A stretch of 64,000 nucleotides of DNA from the NCBI GenBank assembly GCA_029262515.1, contig JAJCZH010000024.1, forward strand, positions 62,001 to 126,000, written 5' to 3'. The translations under genes and the position numbers were made by a program. Positions 15,635 to 34,158 of the stretch are shown here, in pieces. This DNA comes from Deltaproteobacteria bacterium. GTDB lineage: Bacteria; Desulfobacterota; GWC2-55-46; JADFVP01. Each line of letters starts with the position of its first letter. Position 1 is the first letter of the stretch. The notes beneath the pieces were generated by a model, which had not been told where the DNA came from, made no database searches, and was given only the letters and a program-made list of their open reading frames with translations.

Positions 15635-15710
15635 GGTCCCATCGTCTAGTGGCCCAGGACATCGCCCTCTCACGGCGAAAACGGGGGTTCGATTCCCCCT
15701 GGGACTGCCA
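15635..15710 (+). tRNA. tRNA-Glu (anticodon CTC), integration site of the element
   Basis: A complete 76-base cloverleaf with encoded CCA. The acceptor stem pairs GGTCCCA with TGGGACT (first pair G-T); the anticodon loop is CTCTCAC, giving CTC, which reads GAG. The T arm is CGGGG-GTTCGATT-CCCC. A tyrosine integrase lies only 20 bases beyond the 3' end on the opposite strand, so the 3' half is the probable attachment site. Confidence 0.95.
15690..15710 (+). other. Putative left attachment site (attL) in tRNA-Glu 3' end
   Basis: The T-arm/acceptor end of tRNA-Glu directly abuts the integrase gene, the layout used by tRNA-targeting integrative elements. By eye I could not find a second copy of this 3' segment anywhere to the right in the window, so the right junction is unplaced. 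Confidence 0.5.
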
Positions 15711-17121: not shown

Positions 17122-17904
17122 TTATCCACTGCAGAGCGCACAGTCCTTTCTTTTCTCTATGTCTTTCATTGTTTCCGGTACAAAACCACCAAGAAATACC
17201 TGCCTAAAATTCCAGTTCCGTTTTCTCTTCATTACAGTCGAGTCAATAGAGAATAGAACTAGACCAGAGATGATTTTCACAAGATCGATCACAGCTGGAG
17301 TATTAGGGCATGGCTCTCTTTCATTATTTACCGCATTAGGTAATGCACAACCTATACAAGCCTTACCAGGCTCCTGGATGAAAACATACCCAGTGTTGGC
17401 ATTCTGATCCAAACCTGTAAAGATCACGGGTGTACTGGGATGAAAATATTTGGATACGTAGATACGTGTCTCGTCGTTGTCTGGTGCACAAACAACGATA
17501 TCGCAATTAACATCCGTTCCATCCTCAATTACCTTCTGGATCATATATGGATATGCACATATCAGAGTACCATTAACCCCTTCCTTGACTAGGTTTCTGG
17601 CTAAGGAAGTCGCCTTGTTTTTGTACAGGTCTTCCTCATAAAAAAACTGCCTAGATAGGTTCGAGAGCTCAACGGTGTCTTCATCAGATATCGTAAGACC
17701 CCCGATGCCCTTTTTAAGTAAGCCGTGGGATATTTCACCACCCAAACCACCTGCACCGATTAGAAGAGACACCAGTCTGTCCATGCGCGATTGATCAAAC
17801 CCATGGATTCGTTCCTGCCTATCGGTCACGCTTTCGTGTGGATCAGACTTCACTTGTCTTGATATGAACTTACTCGACTTCAACGAGGCGGTATATTTTG
17901 TCAT
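17122..17904 (-). CDS. E1-like ThiF-family adenylyltransferase of a Ubl operon
   Basis: A 260-residue minimal E1. The nucleotide-binding loop GAGGLGG is at residues 50-56, SDEDTVELSNLSRQ at 73-86 holds the Mg/ATP residues, and NLSRQFFYEED matches ThiF/MoeB. Zinc-type cysteine pairs are CIGC (183-186) and CALC (255-258); C199 in EPCPNTPAV is the best candidate for the thioester or persulfide cysteine. There are no extra UFD or FCCH domains. It overlaps the JAMM gene by 35 bases with a plausible AAGG ribosome site. Expected role: adenylates the C-terminal glycine of the small modifier encoded three genes upstream. Confidence 0.88.
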   Translation of the reverse strand: MTKYTASLKSSKFISRQVKSDPHESVTDRQERIHGFDQSRMDRLVSLLIGAGGLGGEISHGLLKKGIGGLTISDEDTVELSNLSRQFFYEEDLYKNKATSLARNLVKEGVNGTLICAYPYMIQKVIEDGTDVNCDIVVCAPDNDETRIYVSKYFHPSTPVIFTGLDQNANTGYVFIQEPGKACIGCALPNAVNNEREPCPNTPAVIDLVKIISGLVLFSIDSTVMKRKRNWNFRQVFLGGFVPETMKDIEKRKDCALCSG

Positions 17905-18574
17905 TGACCTTCTCCACTCCCTTACCGAAGATATTTATCTCGAATTCTTTTGAGGAAAAGAACCTTACAAATCCGTCTCTACTAAATATGGCCCCGATAC
18001 TATCGTAACCACCCTTAAGTAGTAACTTGTCTAAGGCCATATCAGTACCCGATGGAGATATTGAGCCGACGCCGCTTCCAGGATGTATATGGATACAGGC
18101 CCATAACCTGTATCCGTAGTCACTTAAGTAAATCAAAGCTTCCCTGATCGCGTCGGTATCAGCCTTTGCATAGACCATGCTCTGTTCCTGAAGCTTGAGA
18201 TCAATAATTTTATCCATGACCTTTTCTTGTCTAACCTCTGGTCCGGTAACGAAATGCAAAGACTCAACCTCTTGCTTGTTTAACAGTTCAAAGCTATCTC
18301 TGAGAAACAATGAGCTTGTCAGGTAGGACCTTTTTGTTTTTACTTCCTCGACGCCATGTACGCTGGTATCTGAACGGTTATCTAAGTGACTGTCTATTTT
18401 GGTAGCTATTCCAGATGCCGCATGTTGATATTTACGAATTGCGTCTTCTACATACCCAGGATTTCTCTTGGCCTGACGTCTTAGTTGCTTGAACGAATAA
18501 TTGATATCTTCTATAACCCTTTTCCTCAGCATATCAACCCGCTGTCTCCGTCTTCTTAGTTTCAAGATATCCAT
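17870..18574 (-). CDS. JAMM/JAB metalloprotease (deubiquitinase-like) of the Ubl operon
   Basis: A 234-residue protein with a basic, helical N-terminal region (residues 1-65) and a C-terminal JAMM domain. The zinc motif is HIHPGSGVGSISPSGTD: H162, H164 and D178, with S175; E102 or E104 is the likely catalytic Glu. Such proteases trim C-terminal tails of ubiquitin-like proteins or remove them from targets. It overlaps both neighbours, 13 bases with the upstream gene and 35 with the E1 gene. AAAGGA precedes the ATG. The tail found on the operon's modifier gives it an obvious candidate substrate (inference). Confidence 0.88.
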   Translation of the reverse strand: MDILKLRRRRQRVDMLRKRVIEDINYSFKQLRRQAKRNPGYVEDAIRKYQHAASGIATKIDSHLDNRSDTSVHGVEEVKTKRSYLTSSLFLRDSFELLNKQEVESLHFVTGPEVRQEKVMDKIIDLKLQEQSMVYAKADTDAIREALIYLSDYGYRLWACIHIHPGSGVGSISPSGTDMALDKLLLKGGYDSIGAIFSRDGFVRFFSSKEFEINIFGKGVEKVNDKIYRLVEVE

Positions 18575-18948
18575 CGTTTGTTCCTTTCTGCCCTAAAAGA
18601 ATCTGATATTAATTTCTCCACCGTTATGATGCCCGAGCTTACATCCCTTGGTTTCTTGCTAAAGTGGATAAAGTATCGACTATTCCCTTTGTACGTAAAG
18701 CAAGCCTTATGACTCCCCTTCAGTAGTTCCTTAGGCGGATCAAAGATGTAAAAATTAAACTTTCCAAGATAGCTTTCGTTGATTACACCACGCCACCGTC
18801 CAAAGTCACTAACGAAATGACCTGCATACTCGCCATTGAATCGTCGCCAGCCATTTTCTTTCCAGTAAGGGTATTCCTTGCCGACAGCTTTTACGTCAAT
18901 CTTTGTACTTTTAAAAGATGAAAAAGATAGTCCCGTGAGGTTCCGCAT
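18562..18948 (-). CDS. Candidate E2-like protein of the Ubl operon
   Basis: A 128-residue protein lying between the modifier and protease genes, where bacterial Ubl operons usually encode an E2-fold protein. It has aromatic and glycine-rich strands (NGWRRF...GEYAGHF...GRWRGV), then FDPPKELLKGSHKACF and YFIHFSKKPRDVSSGIITVEKLI. The only cysteine is C83, near H80, with H95 further on. The PP turn before a single Cys and a following helix are compatible with a reduced UBC fold, but I cannot prove homology by eye. It could instead be an unrelated partner. AAGGA precedes its start. Confidence 0.5.
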   Translation of the reverse strand: MRNLTGLSFSSFKSTKIDVKAVGKEYPYWKENGWRRFNGEYAGHFVSDFGRWRGVINESYLGKFNFYIFDPPKELLKGSHKACFTYKGNSRYFIHFSKKPRDVSSGIITVEKLISDSFRAERNKRWIS

Positions 18949-18959
18949 TGACCTAGTCC

Positions 18960-19334
18960 TTACAAGTTGAACACTTTTTTTTTAAGCCCATAGCTCCTGT
19001 CACCCCATGTTTTATTGTCCTGATCAGTTGCGACATTACGAGTCTTATCCAGAAAATCACTTATTCTACTATTTAGCATACCGAGTGTAGTGCGGGGGAC
19101 TGAGTCCCCCCCGCCTACAGATACATCCTCGGGCGTTGCATAAAACTTCTCAGAATCCATCGCCATAGAGAATATGTTGGTTTCAGGGGTAAGTAGTTCC
19201 CCACCCTTTCTTGTAAGCTGATACCCAACAAGGTTAGCTTCCTTCATAACTTCTCCTACTGTTGCACCTTCGGATATTCCAATGTCTTTGATCTCACCGC
19301 TTGCCGCGACGACTATTGATATTTGCTTTTCCAT
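18960..19334 (-). CDS. Ubiquitin-like (beta-grasp) modifier with C-terminal tail
   Basis: A 124-residue protein, first gene of the operon, with GGAGGT before its ATG. Residues 1-73 read as a beta-grasp domain: two starting strands (KQISIVVAASGEIKDIGI), a helix (TVGEVMKEANL), then YQLTRKGGELL and a last strand KFYATPEDVSV. This is followed directly by GGG at 74-76. A 48-residue tail (77-124) follows, so the glycines are not terminal and would need exposure by cleavage. The neighbouring JAMM and E1 genes support a conjugatable modifier. I recognise the pattern, not a named family. Confidence 0.75.
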   Translation of the reverse strand: MEKQISIVVAASGEIKDIGISEGATVGEVMKEANLVGYQLTRKGGELLTPETNIFSMAMDSEKFYATPEDVSVGGGDSVPRTTLGMLNSRISDFLDKTRNVATDQDNKTWGDRSYGLKKKVFNL

Positions 19335-19525: not shown

Positions 19526-19885
19526 CTATTTATTATTCTTTAAATTCGGAATAAAATCGTCCAATACTAGAAACCGTACTTTCTCTAATACGAACATATT
19601 TAATTTCCTACTGGCCCTCCTCTCTATCCGGTTGGAGATTTTCTTATTTATTGAAATGATCCACACCTTGTCACAACCTACGCTTAGATCAAGAATAATG
19701 TTCTCAACCGCATGCCTTTCAGTCAGCTGGACCTCAGCTGCTATCGTGTGCCGGGTGCGTTTGCTTTGTAAAAGGACGTCTATCTTCTTTCCCTTGATAT
19801 AATGTTCTTTTATGGCGATCCAATCCGCTACCTGTGCTTGCGCTTTAATACTGTCTTGAATATCGTTGTGAATTTCACTTCGCAC
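19526..19885 (-). CDS. Small nuclease-like protein (PD-(D/E)xK pattern)
   Basis: A 119-residue protein. KGKKIDVLLQS followed by HTIAAEVQLTERHAVENI gives an Asp and a Glu-x-Gln at the spacing of restriction-endonuclease-like folds, and VWIISINKKISNRIER fits a following strand and helix. The C-terminal domain of the 657-residue ATPase at 26.4-28.4 kb has the same order of elements, which supports the call. It overlaps the end of the upstream ATPase gene by 11 bases. Function is probably DNA processing with that ATPase (inference). Confidence 0.5.
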   Translation of the reverse strand: MRSEIHNDIQDSIKAQAQVADWIAIKEHYIKGKKIDVLLQSKRTRHTIAAEVQLTERHAVENIILDLSVGCDKVWIISINKKISNRIERRASRKLNMFVLEKVRFLVLDDFIPNLKNNK

Positions 19886-21638
19886 TTATGTACCTCAAGC
19901 CCTCTTCTGTTAACTTAAGCACTTTTGTGGGCCTTCCTCTCTTGCCTGTATGCCTAACATCTTCTTCAATTAGGCCGTTATCAAGTGCCTTCTTTTTTAA
20001 GGCGTCTCCTTTCCTTGCGGAATGACTGAGCGCCTTATAAATATCCGTAAGTTTTACTTCGGGATGGCCGTTAACGTACTTCAAAAGTCTCTCTAAGTCT
20101 TCTAAAGGGTTCGTAGTCACAGTAGGTAAGGTCCTCGTTAATGCTCTCACCCTCGAGATGCTACTATCAGTTATATTTCTACTAACTACGCGAACCGTCT
20201 TCTCTCTTAGGAACCCTGAACCCAGTGAATTAAGTTGGGCAACTTTCTCCTTCATCAGCATTTTTAGCTCTGCATCAGTAATATGTCTTTGAACCTTTGA
20301 CTTATAGGTCATGATACGGAATGGATAGGGGTACTCGGCTATCTTCACTAAAGCCACATGTCTCCCGAGTTGTGGAATCATCTGTCTCTGTCCCTCATTG
20401 CAGCCCATGGCGGTCGATATTTCTCGTATCTCTTTCGGGACGCTATGTTGAAAGCTAACGAAACAGCTTGCGGCTCTCGTAAAGCCTGCAAGTTCTGTCG
20501 CGAACTGGTCGCTAATGAACCACGCGCATCCCAAGGAACGGCTCTTGGTGTACATGTCCTTAATGTAGTTTGTACCTTCACCGATACGCGATTTGCCGAA
20601 GACACACTTGGCTTCATCGACCACGATAACCCTATTAACTCTATGCCGCTCCTCACCAATTAGACCTTGACGTTGATACTGTCTGCACTTCAGTTTCATG
20701 TACCAAGAGCGTTTGTCTTCACTCAGATCGCCGATCTCGTATGAGATAAAGCTGTGTTTATCAAGCTGATCAAGAGAGTATCCTCTCCGGCAGTCAGCCA
20801 TGCCTTTGAAGGATCTAATTATGTAATCCAGTTTCCTCAGAGCTGTTCTGATCTTGTTCTTCTCTGCGGTTTTTGTGCCTGGTCTAACTAGTTTCTCCTG
20901 GACAAACTTTTTAAGGTCGTTAAACGATGGAGGTTCACAACCGTTATTGACTTTGGATTTATGATAAAGCTCGGCGCTGAAATTAAAGAGCATCTCTTTT
21001 GTCTCATCTCTGATACTGAAGTCCTGCTGTGTTATCTCCCAAATGAACTGAAGGTGATCTTCTGGAGAGCCTATTGGTTCAAGAGGGTTGAACCAATCAT
21101 CGTAGTGATTTATGACAAGGCCATTCTCGCAACCCGAAACCTGCATGAGGTTTCTATAGTCCATTGCAACATCAAATACAGCCACTCGTATACCGAGTGC
21201 TATGAATTGAGGAATAAGAGATAGGTTGAGTTCAGTTTTCCCCATCCCGAAAGTTCCGTAGCTCGTCTGGTTCCCGCTAAATTGTTCTATTCTAAGCTTT
21301 ACATCCATATTGGAGTCGATAATTCTGCCGATAGTAATAACACCGCCATTGAAAAGATCACTCGGGAGGCTGTTGTTTTCCCTTCTCTTTTCCTCAATCC
21401 TCTTCCATAATCGCTGCTCGACCATTCTGACTTGGTGTTTTATCAGTGAGTGGTTCCTACTAAAGGCCCGGACAACTGCTAGAGCATTCAGCACAAATTT
21501 TTCCCGCTCAGCACCGGCCTCAATGGCCAATTCGTTGATGTAGTCTGCTGCCTTCTGTGCATAGCTCCGTAAATCAATCGTTGACTTAGTAGAACTACCC
21601 GTATGGCTGAATTTTTCAAAATTACTTCCCACCGTCAT
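19875..21638 (-). CDS. HerA/FtsK-like AAA+ ATPase with C-terminal winged helix
   Basis: A 587-residue P-loop ATPase. Walker A is GTFGMGKTE (near residue 129), Walker B is VIVVDEAKCVFG (near residue 329), and RAASCFVSFQHSV follows as a sensor-like segment. The last 70 residues (PLEDLERLLKYVNGHPEVKLTDIY...GKRGRPTKVLKLTEEGLRYI) form a wHTH. It resembles HerA/DUF87-type DNA pumps of mobile elements. It overlaps the nuclease-like gene downstream and the zinc-cluster protein upstream, so the three form one unit. No relaxase is nearby. Confidence 0.75.
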   Translation of the reverse strand: MTVGSNFEKFSHTGSSTKSTIDLRSYAQKAADYINELAIEAGAEREKFVLNALAVVRAFSRNHSLIKHQVRMVEQRLWKRIEEKRRENNSLPSDLFNGGVITIGRIIDSNMDVKLRIEQFSGNQTSYGTFGMGKTELNLSLIPQFIALGIRVAVFDVAMDYRNLMQVSGCENGLVINHYDDWFNPLEPIGSPEDHLQFIWEITQQDFSIRDETKEMLFNFSAELYHKSKVNNGCEPPSFNDLKKFVQEKLVRPGTKTAEKNKIRTALRKLDYIIRSFKGMADCRRGYSLDQLDKHSFISYEIGDLSEDKRSWYMKLKCRQYQRQGLIGEERHRVNRVIVVDEAKCVFGKSRIGEGTNYIKDMYTKSRSLGCAWFISDQFATELAGFTRAASCFVSFQHSVPKEIREISTAMGCNEGQRQMIPQLGRHVALVKIAEYPYPFRIMTYKSKVQRHITDAELKMLMKEKVAQLNSLGSGFLREKTVRVVSRNITDSSISRVRALTRTLPTVTTNPLEDLERLLKYVNGHPEVKLTDIYKALSHSARKGDALKKKALDNGLIEEDVRHTGKRGRPTKVLKLTEEGLRYISAK

Positions 21639-22105
21639 CTCCGTTTCTTTTCATTCTCTTGCCAAGTATCGTGCTCATCCATAGCCTGCTTGTAATGCTT
21701 AAGGCAGTAGGGCGTTATTTTTTCACCAAGTTCAAACATATATACATGCTTCAAGCAGAGAGGTTTTTTGCAGCCGTATATGTGGCAGTTAAAAATATAT
21801 GAATCATATTCACAACAAATATCGCACTGCCCCTTAATTTCGTTCTCTTTAACTCTGTGACCGGATTTTACTATCAGCATAGGCTTTTCTACTTCAGACT
21901 CCATGCCCTCTTTAGTTGGGCGTATCTTTCTTATCCATGAAGTCCAACCATCATTGCTTGCTTTGGTTGGCTTTATTTTCACACTTTCTTCACTTAAGCT
22001 ACCTTCAGCCTCCGGAACATCAGGTACTTGTGACTTTTTAGACTCAAGAGAAGGTTGGGAGTTCTTGTTTGTATCTCTGATCCCTATTAATTTTGTCTTC
22101 TTCAT
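21635..22105 (-). CDS. Hypothetical protein with C-terminal Cys/His zinc cluster
   Basis: A 156-residue protein. Residues 1-85 are polar and low in predicted structure; the rest has a dense Cys/His array (CDICCEYDSY, NCHIYGCKKPLCLKHVYMF, PYCLKHYK) consistent with a two-zinc cross-brace like a B-box or ZZ finger. It overlaps the ATPase gene by four bases (ATGA-type). I do not recognise a family; it may act as an adaptor for the ATPase. Confidence 0.6.
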   Translation of the reverse strand: MKKTKLIGIRDTNKNSQPSLESKKSQVPDVPEAEGSLSEESVKIKPTKASNDGWTSWIRKIRPTKEGMESEVEKPMLIVKSGHRVKENEIKGQCDICCEYDSYIFNCHIYGCKKPLCLKHVYMFELGEKITPYCLKHYKQAMDEHDTWQENEKKRR

Positions 22106-22111
22106 AATCCC

Positions 22112-22516
22112 CTACATACTTGCTATAATTTGAACAATCAAACCAATCCATATTGAAGCTATAATGATTTTTTTAAGTCTTAATTGATTCCCTAACCGCG
22201 GTGTTATGAAGAAAGCTAGCCTGCTAGGAAGAAATATTATGCAGCACAGTGCAATAAGAAAATTAAGTGTTAGGAACTCTTTTCCTATGTTTCTAAATTC
22301 CTCTACAGGAACATACAAAGAAATCGCTATGCTAAGTACTGCTATACAGACTTGAGAATGAACCGTACGCCATGGAAGGTATACCCATGCTGCAAAGAGC
22401 GTAGTGCTGCTTAACGCAAGTAAGAAGCCAACTCTTAAGATATACGAGCTCAAGCCCATAGGTAGGTAGTAAATCAAATCAAAAACAAAATCTCTCGATT
22501 GCACTAAAATATCCAT
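22112..22516 (-). CDS. Small polytopic membrane protein
   Basis: A 134-residue protein with four hydrophobic segments at about 22-46, 55-72, 82-100 and 113-132. No signature residues are recognised. It stops six bases before the zinc-cluster gene and heads the same minus-strand run (membrane protein, zinc-cluster protein, ATPase, nuclease). Confidence 0.6.
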   Translation of the reverse strand: MDILVQSRDFVFDLIYYLPMGLSSYILRVGFLLALSSTTLFAAWVYLPWRTVHSQVCIAVLSIAISLYVPVEEFRNIGKEFLTLNFLIALCCIIFLPSRLAFFITPRLGNQLRLKKIIIASIWIGLIVQIIASM

Positions 22517-22683: not shown

Positions 22684-24621
22684 ATGAATTACTCTAAGAA
22701 AACTATCAAACAACTGGCTCGAAAAGAAGATAAGGCTGATAAAGGTATCTATATGTTCATCAATAAGATGTTCAAAGAAACCAAGCGGTTAAGAGCCAAT
22801 AGTCCCGTGATAGTGAGTATAGCCAAACACCAACAAACCCTTCATTATGCATATAAAAGTGAAAGTAGGAGAGGGAAAAGAGGTGGGCGCTTCAAGAAGA
22901 TAGAATTTATGATGATTGGTTGTGCGTTTTACTACCTAGCTAAATGCACTTTAAAAGGGCGAGTAGGCGATTTCAACATTGGTGAGAATGAATTTGCAAG
23001 ATATGTATGGTTAATAACGGACAACACTGATTATAAGGCAGACCAGCTTAGGTCAGAAGTAACGTGTTTAAATGATGTGAATAATATTATACGGAACTTT
23101 TATGCTTATGATCTTGACGGTATTATTGCTGACTATACTCTTAAAAGCATAGGACATGAACTTGGTAAGAATGGTTGTGCCTTAAAACCAAAATTTATAA
23201 CAGTTCCCCAAATCGAAAATGATAATAAAGATAATAGAGTAGAAAGTCTATTCAAGAGGGTCAAAGAGAAACTTGGAGAATTAGAAGAGCATGGATATGC
23301 GAAAGAAGAATATAAAGGGGATAAAGACGTAATCCATAATAAAAGAATGATCCATGAGAAGTCTAATAGACTTCATATGATTGCAATAAAAGCAGTAGAG
23401 TCCTTGATGAAAACTTATGAACAGGAAGGAGGGTTACATGGACAAGGTTCAGAAGAACTTGAGAATTCATTAAGTAATATCGATGATTATATGGCTATAA
23501 TTATTGCTATGCTATTAATAGATAAGCAGGAGGGAGAGGAACCGTACAGTAAAATAACGATAGCTGACTCTCAGTCTGAAGGTCTTGCTCTGGTTAAACT
23601 AATCTTATCTATGACGTTATCTGAATTGCGAGATAATAAGTCTGCATCACTAGATGAGATACTTGATCGTCTTATTAGTATCTTTACAACAAAAGCAGGC
23701 CTATCGGAAGTTTCTCCCGTGAATAAGTTAATAAGAGACCCAAAAGATAAGCCTACATGGTTAATACAGCATGGATTGCGCAATGAGGATATCAAAAGAA
23801 GAGATGAATTAATTATTGCAACAACAACAAGCTTCTTTTCGACAGGTTTGGCAACAGTCCTTGCTGAGAAATTTACAGATGTCATGAGCACTAGTAGTAA
23901 ACGACAAATTTCCGTCAAACACGCTTCTCTTGGTTCTGGAGAAGCGGTTTCTTTGTTAAGGAGCAGGTGTGCCGACATGGCACTCATTCATTCGCCCTTT
24001 CACGAAGAATTATTTTTGGCTTCAGAAGAAACTTCCTCCAGCACTAAATTAATGAGAAATAATTTTGTTTTAGTTGGGCCACCAGAGTCGTCTAAGGTCA
24101 AGCCCAAAACCCTTATGGATGCATTACGTTATATATATAATAATGGAGATTTTCTTAGTCGAAATGATTTCTCTGGAACCCATTTATGTGAACTGCAACT
24201 TTGGAAGCACTTTTTTTGTCCTTCAGAAATCGGGCTTGAAGTTACAAAAAAATATCTTCGGAACTGGGAAAAATACAACCTATTACAAGTAGAGGAGTAC
24301 AAGCAGATCGACAAAAACTTGCTAATATCTACTAGAGGCATGGAAGAGGCATTAAGAACAGCAAGCGTGAACGGGTACTATATAATATCAGATGCTGGAA
24401 CATTTTCTTATAATCAGAGCAGCCTTAAATTAGAAGTTTTTTTTAGAAATAACAATGAAAAGCTGTTAAACAATGACTATAGTTTAATTACACTGAATAG
24501 TCCGGGAACGAATTTTGAACTAGCTAAGCAATATCGTGATTTTGTGTCTAGTGCTGAAGGAAAAGAGATCATAGCTAGTTATGTCGATGCTGGTGGAAAT
24601 GAATTATTCACAGTTATATAG
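22684..24621 (+). CDS. Cytosolic protein with C-terminal TupA-like periplasmic-binding-protein domain
   Basis: A 645-residue plus-strand protein in an otherwise minus-strand region. Residues from about 375 onward match the tungstate-binding TupA/PBP-like-2 pattern: IIATTTSFFSTGLATVLAEKF, then SLGSGEAVSLLRSRCADMALIHSP, then NNFVLVGPPESSK, and late GYYIISDAGTF and FELAKQYRDFVSS. The N-terminus has no signal peptide and the first 370 residues (basic, mostly helical) match nothing I know. A ligand-sensing domain in a cytosolic protein is unusual; it might sense an oxyanion or phage-derived metabolite. AT-rich codon use differs from the core genes. Confidence 0.7.
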   Translation: MNYSKKTIKQLARKEDKADKGIYMFINKMFKETKRLRANSPVIVSIAKHQQTLHYAYKSESRRGKRGGRFKKIEFMMIGCAFYYLAKCTLKGRVGDFNIGENEFARYVWLITDNTDYKADQLRSEVTCLNDVNNIIRNFYAYDLDGIIADYTLKSIGHELGKNGCALKPKFITVPQIENDNKDNRVESLFKRVKEKLGELEEHGYAKEEYKGDKDVIHNKRMIHEKSNRLHMIAIKAVESLMKTYEQEGGLHGQGSEELENSLSNIDDYMAIIIAMLLIDKQEGEEPYSKITIADSQSEGLALVKLILSMTLSELRDNKSASLDEILDRLISIFTTKAGLSEVSPVNKLIRDPKDKPTWLIQHGLRNEDIKRRDELIIATTTSFFSTGLATVLAEKFTDVMSTSSKRQISVKHASLGSGEAVSLLRSRCADMALIHSPFHEELFLASEETSSSTKLMRNNFVLVGPPESSKVKPKTLMDALRYIYNNGDFLSRNDFSGTHLCELQLWKHFFCPSEIGLEVTKKYLRNWEKYNLLQVEEYKQIDKNLLISTRGMEEALRTASVNGYYIISDAGTFSYNQSSLKLEVFFRNNNEKLLNNDYSLITLNSPGTNFELAKQYRDFVSSAEGKEIIASYVDAGGNELFTVI

Positions 24622-24687: not shown

Positions 24688-25563
24688 TTACCACGGAATG
24701 TCTGGTACTGCGGCTGGCAGTGTAGTCGCTTCCACCCTTTCTATCATCTCGATAAGCTGAAAGCCTATCTTCCTGATCGTATTACCAGCCAAAAGAACTC
24801 TCTCCACCTCTTCACTCCACGAGGCAATATAAGGAAACGAGTATCCGGATGAGTTGAGGCCAAAGTGAGCGGACGTTATGAACGCTACGCCTTCAGCTAT
24901 TACTTCGCCAGTTAGTCGGTCGTGCTTTTCAAGTTCCTTATCGTTCTGTCCATTTATGGCCAGGTGGTGGGCGAGCTCATGCAAGAGCGTCTTGCATTGT
25001 TCCTCAACCGTCAGCCTACTTGAGAGCACGATCTGCTGCTCCTTAGGTTTATAGTAGCCTCTTGCTTCGCCTTCAATATCCTCGTAGTCAACCGGTACCG
25101 GTGAAGCCCGGAAAATCCTATCAAAGAGATCTTGAGCGTCACCGTCCATCACCGGCATCTCTGTCTCGATCTCCGGCACAGACTTACCATCCGTCTGCTC
25201 CACATCAAAAACATATACCGCACGAAAGCCTATTAGCCTCTCTACTTCTGTTTCAGCCACCTCCAGGTTTGATTTTGTATTCATTCGGGTAGTATTCTCC
25301 TTTACCTTCTTGATTACGGGTGCAAATATCGCTATCCCTTTTTCACCCTTCTTTATGTGTCTACCCAGTGAGTTCCACGTCTTCATGCCTGCCACATGTG
25401 TTACTCCTTTACGCTGTGACCATATGAGCAGCGTGTTGCCGAAGCTGTACCTTCTAAACTTCGATGAAAAGGTTATGAAGTCTTTGAAGGATTCAGACTC
25501 CATAACCTGCTTTACGCCTTCAACCAGTTTTGCATGGTATTCTTTTATCTTGATCATCTTCAT
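24688..25563 (-). CDS. ArdC-like antirestriction protein with zinc-metallopeptidase domain
   Basis: A 291-residue protein. The N-terminal half has the ArdC ssDNA-binding pattern (YSFGNTLLIWSQRKGVTHVAG, then WNSLGRHIKKGEKGIAIFAP); the C-terminal half has a metallopeptidase helix LLHELAHHLAIN near residue 191. ArdC proteins protect incoming DNA from restriction and are typical of conjugative or integrative elements. AGGAG precedes the ATG. It is transcribed apart from its neighbours, with two terminators upstream. Confidence 0.85.
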   Translation of the reverse strand: MKMIKIKEYHAKLVEGVKQVMESESFKDFITFSSKFRRYSFGNTLLIWSQRKGVTHVAGMKTWNSLGRHIKKGEKGIAIFAPVIKKVKENTTRMNTKSNLEVAETEVERLIGFRAVYVFDVEQTDGKSVPEIETEMPVMDGDAQDLFDRIFRASPVPVDYEDIEGEARGYYKPKEQQIVLSSRLTVEEQCKTLLHELAHHLAINGQNDKELEKHDRLTGEVIAEGVAFITSAHFGLNSSGYSFPYIASWSEEVERVLLAGNTIRKIGFQLIEMIERVEATTLPAAVPDIPW

Positions 25564-26427: not shown

Positions 26428-28401
26428 TCAAAAATATCTATTAGATCCTATGATTTTCACTTGATTAGTTGCCATATTCTCCTTTGTTAGTTTTTCATTT
26501 ATTTGTTTCTCTGCTGCTGAGTTAGTGGCTACACAAATTATCCTCTGGTAATCTGAACATTTTTTGATGTTCTCTATTGGTTTGCTTTTGCCTGTCTCTA
26601 TCTCAACGGCAGTTTCCTGGCCGTCTTTTTCTACGACCATGTCGATAGTCTTGCCCTGGCCGATTGGCACTTCGTGCTTTACATTGTAGCCCATATTTTT
26701 ATAATGGTAAGATACTTTCATTCGCCAGTATTCGTGCACAACACCGCCCTTAAAGCCCTTCAGGTAATTGAGGCCAAGAGACTTAATCATCTCCTTACCG
26801 GTCTTGGTTGGTTCAAGTAAGAGTACTCGTGCGTTCTTGGTTGGAAGCGATACCGGGTTTAATATCTCTTTTTCTATGAGAGTATTCTTTATTTCATTTC
26901 CTTTCTCAACGCTCAGACCCAGCCTCTTGTATCGATTACTGACTCCAGAGAGAGGGTGTGCTGTGATGTCTTTTAGAAATTCGGTCTCTTCCTTGCTTAA
27001 TATATCTGTTATCCGAATCTCGTTATTTTGGATTATCTGAGCCTCTGGGAGGCTATTCTTTTCCGAATCAGTAGAAGAACTTATCAATAGATCATTTTGC
27101 ATATGACGCCTAATGTCTTCGTTACTGACCGTGCCTTTCTTTATTGCTGCGTGGGGGAAGCGCAGCAGAAAGGGATTTGGGTGTTCTGTCTTAACTATTG
27201 CTTCTCCGGTCTTTAGTTTGCCGAAGTGCTTTTGTTCATCTAAGTCGAGAAGAAGTGCTTTTGAGACTTGCCGTATGTCATCCTGGTGACGAAGTTGCAT
27301 TGCAACTAAAGTGTTTATGTTTGCCAACGCTGTATTAGATATAAGGGAGGGGGACTGGTCTAATATACAAAAACCTTGGCCTAGTTCTCTCAGCTCTCTT
27401 AAACATAAGTCCGTTATCGTCTCCTCCTGCTCCTTTTTTTTCAGGAGCATGTGATGTGCTTCTTCTATTATGAATAGGTGGCGTAATTCTTCGTCACGCT
27501 CTCTATCTTCGTTGACCCTGAAAAGATATGTTTGCAATAAAAGGCTTTCCACTAAAAATGCCTTTGTAGTCTGTGGAAGAGTGTCGAGTTCAAGTACAAC
27601 TTTTTGGCTAAGAAGGTTTTGAATGTCTATGGAATGTTCAGTGTTGAAGACGTCGCCCACTGGGCCGAATGTCAGGTCTTGCAATGTTCTCATGGCAGAT
27701 GCCTTCCAGAGTGACTCCCGACCGCTGACCTTAAGTAGGTCTAGGTGTTGTTGCACATCCTTGAAGGTTGGAGCTTTTGTCATCTCTGAATAAATTCCAC
27801 ACTCTTTGTAGACACTGTCAATTGTGATTTGGAGTAGTGTGTCTACTCCGTAAGATACGAAGTGCGAATGATTGATAACATCAATGAGTTTATTGATGTA
27901 GGTTTTGGGATCAACACCTTTAGGTGGTATGAGTGGGTTGAAATGAAATGGAGCGACTGACTTGCCAACGGTATAAATCTTCAGATTCTTTCCTATTTGT
28001 GTTTTTAATAGGTCTCTATAATTCTGTTTCCAGTCCGTTATCAGAAAAGGGATGTTGTTATAATGGAGGTTAGCGATTAGATAGAAGCAGGAGTTAGTCT
28101 TACCTGATCCGGTTGTGCCAAAAATGCCTACGTGCCTACAGAGATTTTTTTTCTTGAGATAAAAAGTGTGACACGCCTTGCCATTATATATTATGTCTCC
28201 TATGGGATACTCACCTGTTAGGTTTTCAGGGGGTGGCAATAGGATCTCATCCTCATTTAGCTTCTGAACTCTTACGAGGTTTATGGCCTCTTCTACTCCG
28301 GATCTTCCCTTAAAGTCTTCGAGCAGGTAGAGCTTGTGTAGCTTATTGGCCTTACCTCCTATAATGGGTTCTAGCTTCTTACAGGTTTCGTCCGGTTTCA
28401 T
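26428..28401 (-). CDS. HerA-like DNA-translocating ATPase fused to wHTH and nuclease-like domain
   Basis: A 657-residue protein. Walker A is GIFGTTGSGKTNS (near residue 96), Walker B is LFIIEEAHHML (near residue 313), and RELGQGFCILDQSPSLI follows as in HerA/DUF87. A winged-helix-like segment lies at about 470-545 (FLKDITAHPLSGVSNRYKRLGLS). The C-terminus reads GYNVKHEVPIGQGKTIDMVV and ETAVEIETGKSK, a D...ExE/K nuclease-like pattern, then RIICVATNS. It overlaps the upstream 136-residue gene by four bases. Probable role: DNA pump with processing nuclease for the element or for defence. Confidence 0.75.
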   Translation of the reverse strand: MKPDETCKKLEPIIGGKANKLHKLYLLEDFKGRSGVEEAINLVRVQKLNEDEILLPPPENLTGEYPIGDIIYNGKACHTFYLKKKNLCRHVGIFGTTGSGKTNSCFYLIANLHYNNIPFLITDWKQNYRDLLKTQIGKNLKIYTVGKSVAPFHFNPLIPPKGVDPKTYINKLIDVINHSHFVSYGVDTLLQITIDSVYKECGIYSEMTKAPTFKDVQQHLDLLKVSGRESLWKASAMRTLQDLTFGPVGDVFNTEHSIDIQNLLSQKVVLELDTLPQTTKAFLVESLLLQTYLFRVNEDRERDEELRHLFIIEEAHHMLLKKKEQEETITDLCLRELRELGQGFCILDQSPSLISNTALANINTLVAMQLRHQDDIRQVSKALLLDLDEQKHFGKLKTGEAIVKTEHPNPFLLRFPHAAIKKGTVSNEDIRRHMQNDLLISSSTDSEKNSLPEAQIIQNNEIRITDILSKEETEFLKDITAHPLSGVSNRYKRLGLSVEKGNEIKNTLIEKEILNPVSLPTKNARVLLLEPTKTGKEMIKSLGLNYLKGFKGGVVHEYWRMKVSYHYKNMGYNVKHEVPIGQGKTIDMVVEKDGQETAVEIETGKSKPIENIKKCSDYQRIICVATNSAAEKQINEKLTKENMATNQVKIIGSNRYF

Positions 28402-33477: not shown

Positions 33478-34158
33478 GCTCAAGAGTTAAAAGGGTGTCA
33501 GTATGGCCGGTACGGCTACAGGCTGATAACCGGCCTTTTAAGGAATGAAGGGTTTAGCGTCAATCATAAGCGCGTTGAACGGATATGGCGCATAGAGGGT
33601 CTCAAAGTACCGCAGAAACAACCTAAACGAAGACGTCTTTGGTTAAATAACGGGTCATGCATACGGCTACGGGCTGAACGCAAAGATCACGTATGGAGTT
33701 ATGACTTTGTATTTGATCGTACGAATGATGGCAGAGCCATTAAGATGCTAAACATCATAGATGAGTACACTAGGGAGTGTCTGGCAATTAAGGTAGGAAG
33801 ACAGTTGAGGAGCCAAGACGTCATAAAATGCCTTGGTGATCTTTTTATAAGCCGTGGCGTTCCTGAGCATATAAGGTCTGACAATGGTGCTGAGTTTACG
33901 GCCAATAAAGTAAGGGAGTGGCTTAAGCACCTCGGAGTAAAAACTCTCTTCATAGAGCCTGGCAGTCCCTGGGAGAATGGATACATCGAGTCCTTCAACG
34001 GCAAGCTCAGGTATGGACTACTCAGTACAGAGATATTCGATACACTCTTTGAAGCAAGAGTGTTGACTGAAAGGTGGAGGCAGGAGTACAATCAGATCAG
34101 GCCGCACAGCTCTCTTGGTTATCGGCCACCGGCACCAGAGACAAAAAAAACCTTATAG
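33478..34158 (+). pseudogene. IS3-family transposase (orfB) fragment, 5' truncated
   Basis: An open frame of 226 codons without a proper start encodes the C-terminal part of an IS3 orfB: QYGRYGYRLITGLLRNEGF, then VERIWRIEGLKVPQKQ, then the rve catalytic core. DDE residues are D in WSYDFVF, D in RSDNGAEFTA and E in ENGYIESFNGKLR; the end is RPHSSLGYRPPAPE. OrfA and the N-terminus of orfB are missing. An IS end sequence follows at once. Confidence 0.85.

Follow-up and report, generated by a model that had tools for sequence, protein, structure and literature searches.

A putative ubiquitin-like tagging pathway of apparently undescribed type in a conserved eight-gene set of uncultured bacteria

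Bacterial ubiquitin-like conjugation is a young field, and few types are known in any detail. On the minus strand of a 64-kb stretch of DNA, here called the window, lie open reading frames for a ubiquitin-like modifier (Ubl), an E2-like protein, a JAMM protease and an E1, overlapping or nearly so. Do these genes form a complete tagging pathway, is it of a known type, and what might it serve? The initial annotation had read four such genes from the sequence, followed beyond the E1 by an excisionase-like HTH gene and an integrase gene; all four reading frames were confirmed by position and length, and the two further genes by matches to HTH_17 and TIGR01764 and to PF00589, respectively. The features are as follows:

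19334-18960, minus strand: Ubl reading frame, 124 aa; the predicted mature part is residues 1-74 (19334-19113), followed by a linker or tail
18948-18562, minus strand: E2-like reading frame, 128 aa counted from ATG, with one Cys; the -1 frame is open from an A9 run, from about 18974
18574-17870, minus strand: JAMM/MPN metalloprotease, 234 aa
17904-17122, minus strand: minimal E1/ThiF adenylyltransferase, 260 aa
17141-16869, minus strand: excisionase-family HTH protein, 90 aa (HTH_17, 7e-10; TIGR01764 excise, 42.1 bits against a cutoff of 28.8)
16800-15730, minus strand: tyrosine integrase, 356 aa (PF00589, 4.5e-31)
15635-15710, plus strand: tRNA-Glu (ARAGORN), adjoining the integrase gene and the probable integration site

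Among these six proteins, curated family cut-offs were reached by the E1, the HTH protein and the integrase only, and neither the Ubl nor the E2-like protein had a convincing match in Pfam, NCBIfam, PADLOC or PHROGs.

Besides the window, eight homologous loci were found; they lie in Omnitrophota and other uncultured bacteria, and one is an IMG/VR contig. Searches with the E1 yielded a 73% identical relative with the same gene order in genome G046 and four relatives among genome contigs (L014, L015, L016 and L017, of which L015 is titled Omnitrophota); two further relatives, G655 and G861, came from genome samples around L014-L017. A scan of IMG/VR with the JAMM profile returned one contig, L019, and scans of the same database with the E1 and with the ATPase described below returned nothing. 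Ubl, E2-like protein, JAMM and E1 are all kept at nine of nine loci. Since the four-gene set recurs at eight other loci, its assembly is not due to chance. The system is rare: in surveys at E 1e-25 it turned up in 2 of 395 genomes of the window's phylum, and the phyla of G430 (which is the genome of L015) and G431 gave 3 of 334 and 1 of 44, respectively. No close relatives of E1, JAMM, E2, Ubl-E2 or ATPase were found among plasmids (72,556 records) and phages (50,697), where the matches were generic ThiF/MoeB proteins only; Moraxella phage Mcat22 and a ThiF of a Paraburkholderia plasmid were considered and set aside. In crAss-like phages (matches H10-H20 of the phage search) there are E1/ThiF-like genes whose annotation is thiamine biosynthesis, and one bears the annotation 'E1 enzyme family protein'. 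All nine loci except the IMG/VR contig come from assemblies of uncultured organisms, and this type of system is, as far as sampled, confined to uncultured lineages.

The conserved gene order reaches upstream to about position 22516 (tblastn), which makes the operon twice as long as first read. The four additional genes are:

19526-19885, minus strand: PD-(D/E)XK nuclease-fold protein, 119 aa (AF2 model, pLDDT 90.5, alpha-beta-beta-beta-alpha-beta)
19875-21638, minus strand: HerA/FtsK/TraD-superfamily ATPase, 587 aa, with a winged-helix-like C terminus
21635-22105, minus strand: 156-aa protein, rich in Cys and probably binding zinc; conserved at the same place in the gene order of G046, G430, G431 and G861, its end present in G429
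22112-22516, minus strand: 134-aa protein, small and hydrophobic, probably spanning the membrane several times; likewise conserved in place in G046, G430, G431 and G861

The order membrane protein (134 aa), zinc protein (156 aa), ATPase (587 aa), PD-(D/E)XK protein (119 aa), Ubl, E2, JAMM, E1 is shown by tblastn to be complete at five loci (the window, G046, G430, G431, G861), and G429 follows it as far as its contig end. Three of the nine loci (L017, L019 and L029) lack the ATPase-nuclease order; L029 has instead a TraG-type coupling protein, Replic_Relax and two DNA methylases. For the predicted fold of the 119-aa protein the best Foldseek matches are the restriction-endonuclease-like PaqCI, 3ijm and EcoT38I, and Can2, with probabilities of about 0.94-1.00 and E values of only 7e-3 or weaker; E27, D36 and E51-x-Q53 are invariant in this family. 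The 587-aa ATPase gives weak NCBIfam matches to VirB4, SXT TraD and HerA, and its Walker A and DEAK motifs are invariant in five homologues. Across samples of 395 and 384 genomes, every member found of its close family came from a genome that has the Ubl module; distant paralogues are present elsewhere. The hydrophobic segments of the 134-aa protein were read directly from the sequence.

The window holds a second HerA-type ATPase (26428-28401, minus strand, 657 aa; DUF87, 1e-13). At its C terminus the sequence looks like a fused domain of PD-(D/E)XK type (TIDMV...AVEIETGK). Homologues of this ATPase lie in G861, together with the neighbouring 136-aa protein, in G123, and in G133, which is without the Ubl module. 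Between the two ATPase genes are a 645-aa gene on the opposite strand (22684-24621, plus strand), with a C-terminal periplasmic-binding-like domain (PBP_like_2, 3e-14) and no obvious signal peptide, and a gene for an ArdC-like antirestriction protein that combines an ArdcN domain with an M78/zincin peptidase domain (24688-25563, minus strand). Genes for DNA N6/N4 methylases stand near the Ubl module at L015:2767-3594, L048:6378-7385 and L029:10763-13173, the two of L029 between JAMM and E1. A CHAT-domain-like protein (1e-3) is encoded upstream of the module in G046 (L021:15418-16104), and in L029 a large protein has a C terminus that looks CHAT-like by eye.

The module was initially described as possible cargo of an element in tRNA-Glu. 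The position at tRNA-Glu stands: the window integrase has a 65% identical counterpart in G046, likewise at tRNA-Glu. A recombinase lies near the Ubl module at six of the nine loci (tyrosine type in the window and G046, serine type in L014, L015, L016 and L029). The word cargo is too weak, because at six loci the four genes keep a conserved order with the ATPase, the nuclease-fold protein and further genes. The window contains no exact repeat of tRNA-Glu, 13 bases or longer, that could be its attR. A 21-base near-copy of the tRNA-Glu 3′ end at 33960-33980 (minus strand), with three mismatches and with none expected by chance, was dismissed as attR because it is inverted and lies inside a transposase-like reading frame (33745-34158). 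Between E1 and the excisionase-like gene G046 carries an 89-aa protein that is RelE/ParE-like by eye (L021:8647-8916, minus strand), which the window is without; with the HTH gene it possibly forms a toxin-antitoxin pair.

Could the eight genes then serve the transfer or maintenance of the integrative element, with Ubl conjugation regulating a coupling ATPase and having no part in defence? In favour are the HerA/TraD-type ATPase, encoded in conserved order with a membrane protein, the recombinases at six of nine loci, the TraG-type protein and Replic_Relax of L029 and the ArdC-like gene of the window element. Against it, the window element showed no recognisable gene for a relaxase, VirB4 or a mating pore, and the operon holds a restriction-endonuclease-like protein. 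We regard this reading as a serious contender with somewhat less than an even chance; between the two purposes, defence seems somewhat more likely.

In the AF2 model of the fused homologue from L014, a beta-grasp domain (residues 1-70) is joined to a confidently modelled second domain by a disordered linker (71-121). Superposed on ubiquitin-like folds, residues 1-73 reach VIA Z scores of up to 11.4 (7mrj), in agreement with the beta-grasp fold initially proposed for the modifier, and in the model superposition Gly74 sits at the level of Gly76 of ubiquitin. Across eight loci K3, G23, T25, Y65, A66, V73 and G74 are invariant; the ninth, G861, keeps the V-G pair and has Leu in place of Y65. A Gly-Gly end of the modifier, as first assumed, does not hold: the Gly-Gly-Gly of the window is not conserved in relatives, and V73-G74 is the conserved C-terminal motif. 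We take V-G to be the natural end of the Ubl because the short versions stop just past it, namely a stand-alone 77-aa gene product ending in ...MEVGK in L029 and an 84-aa protein ending in ...DVGIPGNKF in L019. Each modifier has one Ubl-length domain at all nine loci.

The partner of the modifier was described as a small one-cysteine protein, and its single Cys, C83, proves to be invariant together with H80, F84 and H95 in eight sequences; all four residues are kept in G861 too. The second domain of the L014 model shows strands, a Cys loop and a C-terminal helix, a predicted topology that, with the invariant Cys, fits the UBC fold without proving it. Structure searches with the fusion gave no E2 fold among the matches listed because matches to the Ubl domain filled the list, and hhalign of the E2 profile against human UBE2D2 scored no better than shuffles. 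The initial reading is supported in the invariant Cys, in a predicted strands-then-helix topology that would suit an E2 and in the constant presence of the modifier, and the protein is a candidate E2. Neither of the outcomes named beforehand as refuting that reading came about.

In five relatives (L014, L015, L016, L017 and G861) Ubl and E2 form a single in-frame reading frame, and the 'long tail' originally ascribed to a single beta-grasp domain is therefore a linker: the one domain stands, and the tail connects Ubl to E2 and has an A9 run at its end. The two halves lie in different frames in the window and in G046, its nearest relative, with the A9 run at the junction:

18975-18983, minus strand: A9 run, CTT AAA AAA AAA GTG...TAA in the window; a -1 shift would join Ubl to E2

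The junction of G046 reads CTC AAA AAA AAA GAG...TAG, with A9 at the same place, and only two A9/T9 runs occur in the whole 64 kb, the junction run included. In both genomes a -1 shift on A9 gives a fusion colinear with the natural Ubl-E2 fusions. The window peptide that follows the shift upstream of the E2 ATG, SVQLVRTRSMRNL, matches the corresponding stretch of the fused relatives and scores top of 4630 local peptides against them, in a comparison whose reference segments were hand-anchored and included G046; against the later-found G861 its score is reached by only 11 of 72476 six-frame 13-mers. If both assemblies had undercalled an A10, the gene would be a plain in-frame fusion; this was judged unlikely, since the two would have made the same error at one site. 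Bacterial RNA polymerase slips efficiently in vivo on runs of 9 A or T (PMC5009743). Slippage on A9, as suggested by the matching peptide after the shift, may yield both Ubl and Ubl-E2 from one gene; a ribosomal -1 shift on A-AAA-AAA is an alternative possibility. A likeness is dnaX of Thermus thermophilus, where a nine-A/T run gives two products through RNA polymerase slippage (PMC5009743); there slippage leads to a shorter product, whereas in the window the outcome would be a modifier extended by a second, enzyme domain. If this is true, slippage would set the stoichiometry of modifier and enzyme. To our knowledge this has not been proposed before.

Plain gene fission would explain the split without any role for A9: the lineage of the window and G046 would have divided a fused gene into two independently translated ones. 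The window E2 has its own ATG at 18948 with AAGGA 8 bases upstream, so that separate translation is possible, and L019 and L029 do have stand-alone Ubl and E2 genes. Yet A9 lies exactly within the frame overlap at both split loci, G046 offers neither ATG nor GTG nor a Shine-Dalgarno sequence for a separate E2 but only a TTG, and the -1 peptide ahead of the ATG has been kept in common with the fused relatives, although translation from that ATG would not preserve it. We consider fission the less likely reading of the junction and prefer slippage.

The two remaining enzymes carry their expected signatures. E104, H162, H164, P165, S175 and D178 of JAMM (E...HxHP...SxxD) are invariant in six sequences, which bears out the HxHP...SxxD motif first noted in the window. 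Prok-JAB (PF14464) was matched by four of the six alignment members (best 7e-4), and no JAB model was matched by the window JAMM alone. The E1 matches Pfam ThiF (PF00899) at 3.2e-26 and has GxGGLG, D76, N82, R85, Q86, K97, D142 and C199 as invariants, C199 being the candidate catalytic Cys by sequence; its CxxC pairs are lost in L014 and L016. With about 250-275 aa and one ThiF domain across loci it is indeed as minimal as the 260-aa window protein had indicated. A sulfur-carrier or cofactor pathway of ThiS/MoaD with ThiF/MoeB is most improbable: the E1 is of the ThiF/MoeB size class and its best NCBIfam matches are ThiF and MoeB, but these fall far below their cutoffs, JAMM and a Cys-bearing E2-like partner are constant, Ubl-E2 fusions exist, and no thiamine or molybdopterin genes were recognised in the operon.

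We return to protein conjugation and think it probable that the eight-gene set of these integrative elements contains a complete ubiquitin-like conjugation pathway coupled to a DNA-processing machine. The Ubl would be made as a precursor, either linker-tailed (no slip) or as a Ubl-E2 fusion (after A9 slippage, or from the uninterrupted reading frame of the five relatives). JAMM would cut past the V-G end and release free Ubl and E2; the E1 would adenylate the Ubl Gly and hand the Ubl via Cys199 to Cys83 of the E2 by thioester transfer; the E2 would pass it to a target, and JAMM possibly reverses conjugation. These steps are modelled by analogy on precursor processing in Bil (PMC11354881). The expected target would be the ATPase and nuclease-fold protein of the set itself or proteins of invading DNA, and the whole set may be a membrane-associated DNA-processing machine. 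More tentatively, and with some doubt, we propose that the Ubl-E2 polyprotein pathway, joined in some lineages by programmed A9 slippage that sets the Ubl:E2 ratio, controls a nuclease machine of integrative elements that is membrane-bound and translocates DNA, in effect a bacterial DNA motor under ubiquitin regulation. A minimal enzyme set is here packaged with plausible substrates or partners, the ATPase and the nuclease-fold protein, and the question of what bacterial ubiquitination modifies therefore becomes directly testable.

How does this operon compare with known systems? It shares with ubiquitin-like conjugation systems a beta-grasp Ubl with a C-terminal Gly, an E1 with an intact ATP site and a candidate catalytic Cys, and the JAMM motif. 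PRTRC plasmid systems, too, have a separate minimal ThiF, and their mobile DNA also encodes JAB, an E2-like protein and a Ubl. The PRTRC models of NCBIfam did not match the Ubl, the E2 (eight alignment members) or the window JAMM, and ThiF reached 34 bits against a cutoff of 144.75. Bub operons follow the same logic of E1, E2, Ubl and peptidase; no Bub-named model was matched in NCBIfam or PADLOC. The initial annotation had counted Bub among the types acting against phage, which is not established, protection against phage not having been demonstrated for these operons according to a 2026 paper (PMC13373217). No system combining HerA, a ubiquitin-like protein and JAB was found in the literature by titles and abstracts, a search that had most subscription journals outside its reach.

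Operon type 6d of Iyer, Burroughs and Aravind is similar in its small separate Ubl with a conserved C-terminal Gly, its separate JAB and E1 and its E2-like protein with a Cys and a conserved downstream His (PMC1779556). Type 6e resembles the window type in having the Ubl fused to an E2-like domain, with a Zn-finger partner; in its fusions, however, the Ubl domains number one to three, the E2-like domain lacks the Cys, and the E1 is mostly JAB-fused (PMC1779556), whereas the window type has a single Ubl, an invariant E2 Cys and separate JAB and E1 and thus falls outside 6e. The HerA-type ATPase and PD-(D/E)XK partners are not described for either 6d or 6e (PMC1779556). The four proteins Ubl, E2, JAMM and E1 also make up BilABCD, in which processing of the Ubl precursor falls to the JAMM (PMC11354881). 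Its modifier BilA carries two beta-grasp domains, in contrast to one at all nine loci here, and BilD combines inactive and active adenylation domains with a Cys domain (PMC11354881), in contrast to the single ThiF domain of the 260-aa E1. The CEHH motif of BilB has Glu at +6, His at +8 and His at +13 from the Cys; in the E2-like protein the Cys is followed by an invariant His at +12 with no conserved Glu at +6, and the CEHH spacing is absent. By the features compared, the operon is neither Bil nor PRTRC, and the suggestion of a distinct type is sustained against these two and Iyer type 6e: the operon apparently represents an undescribed type of complete ubiquitin-like tagging pathway.
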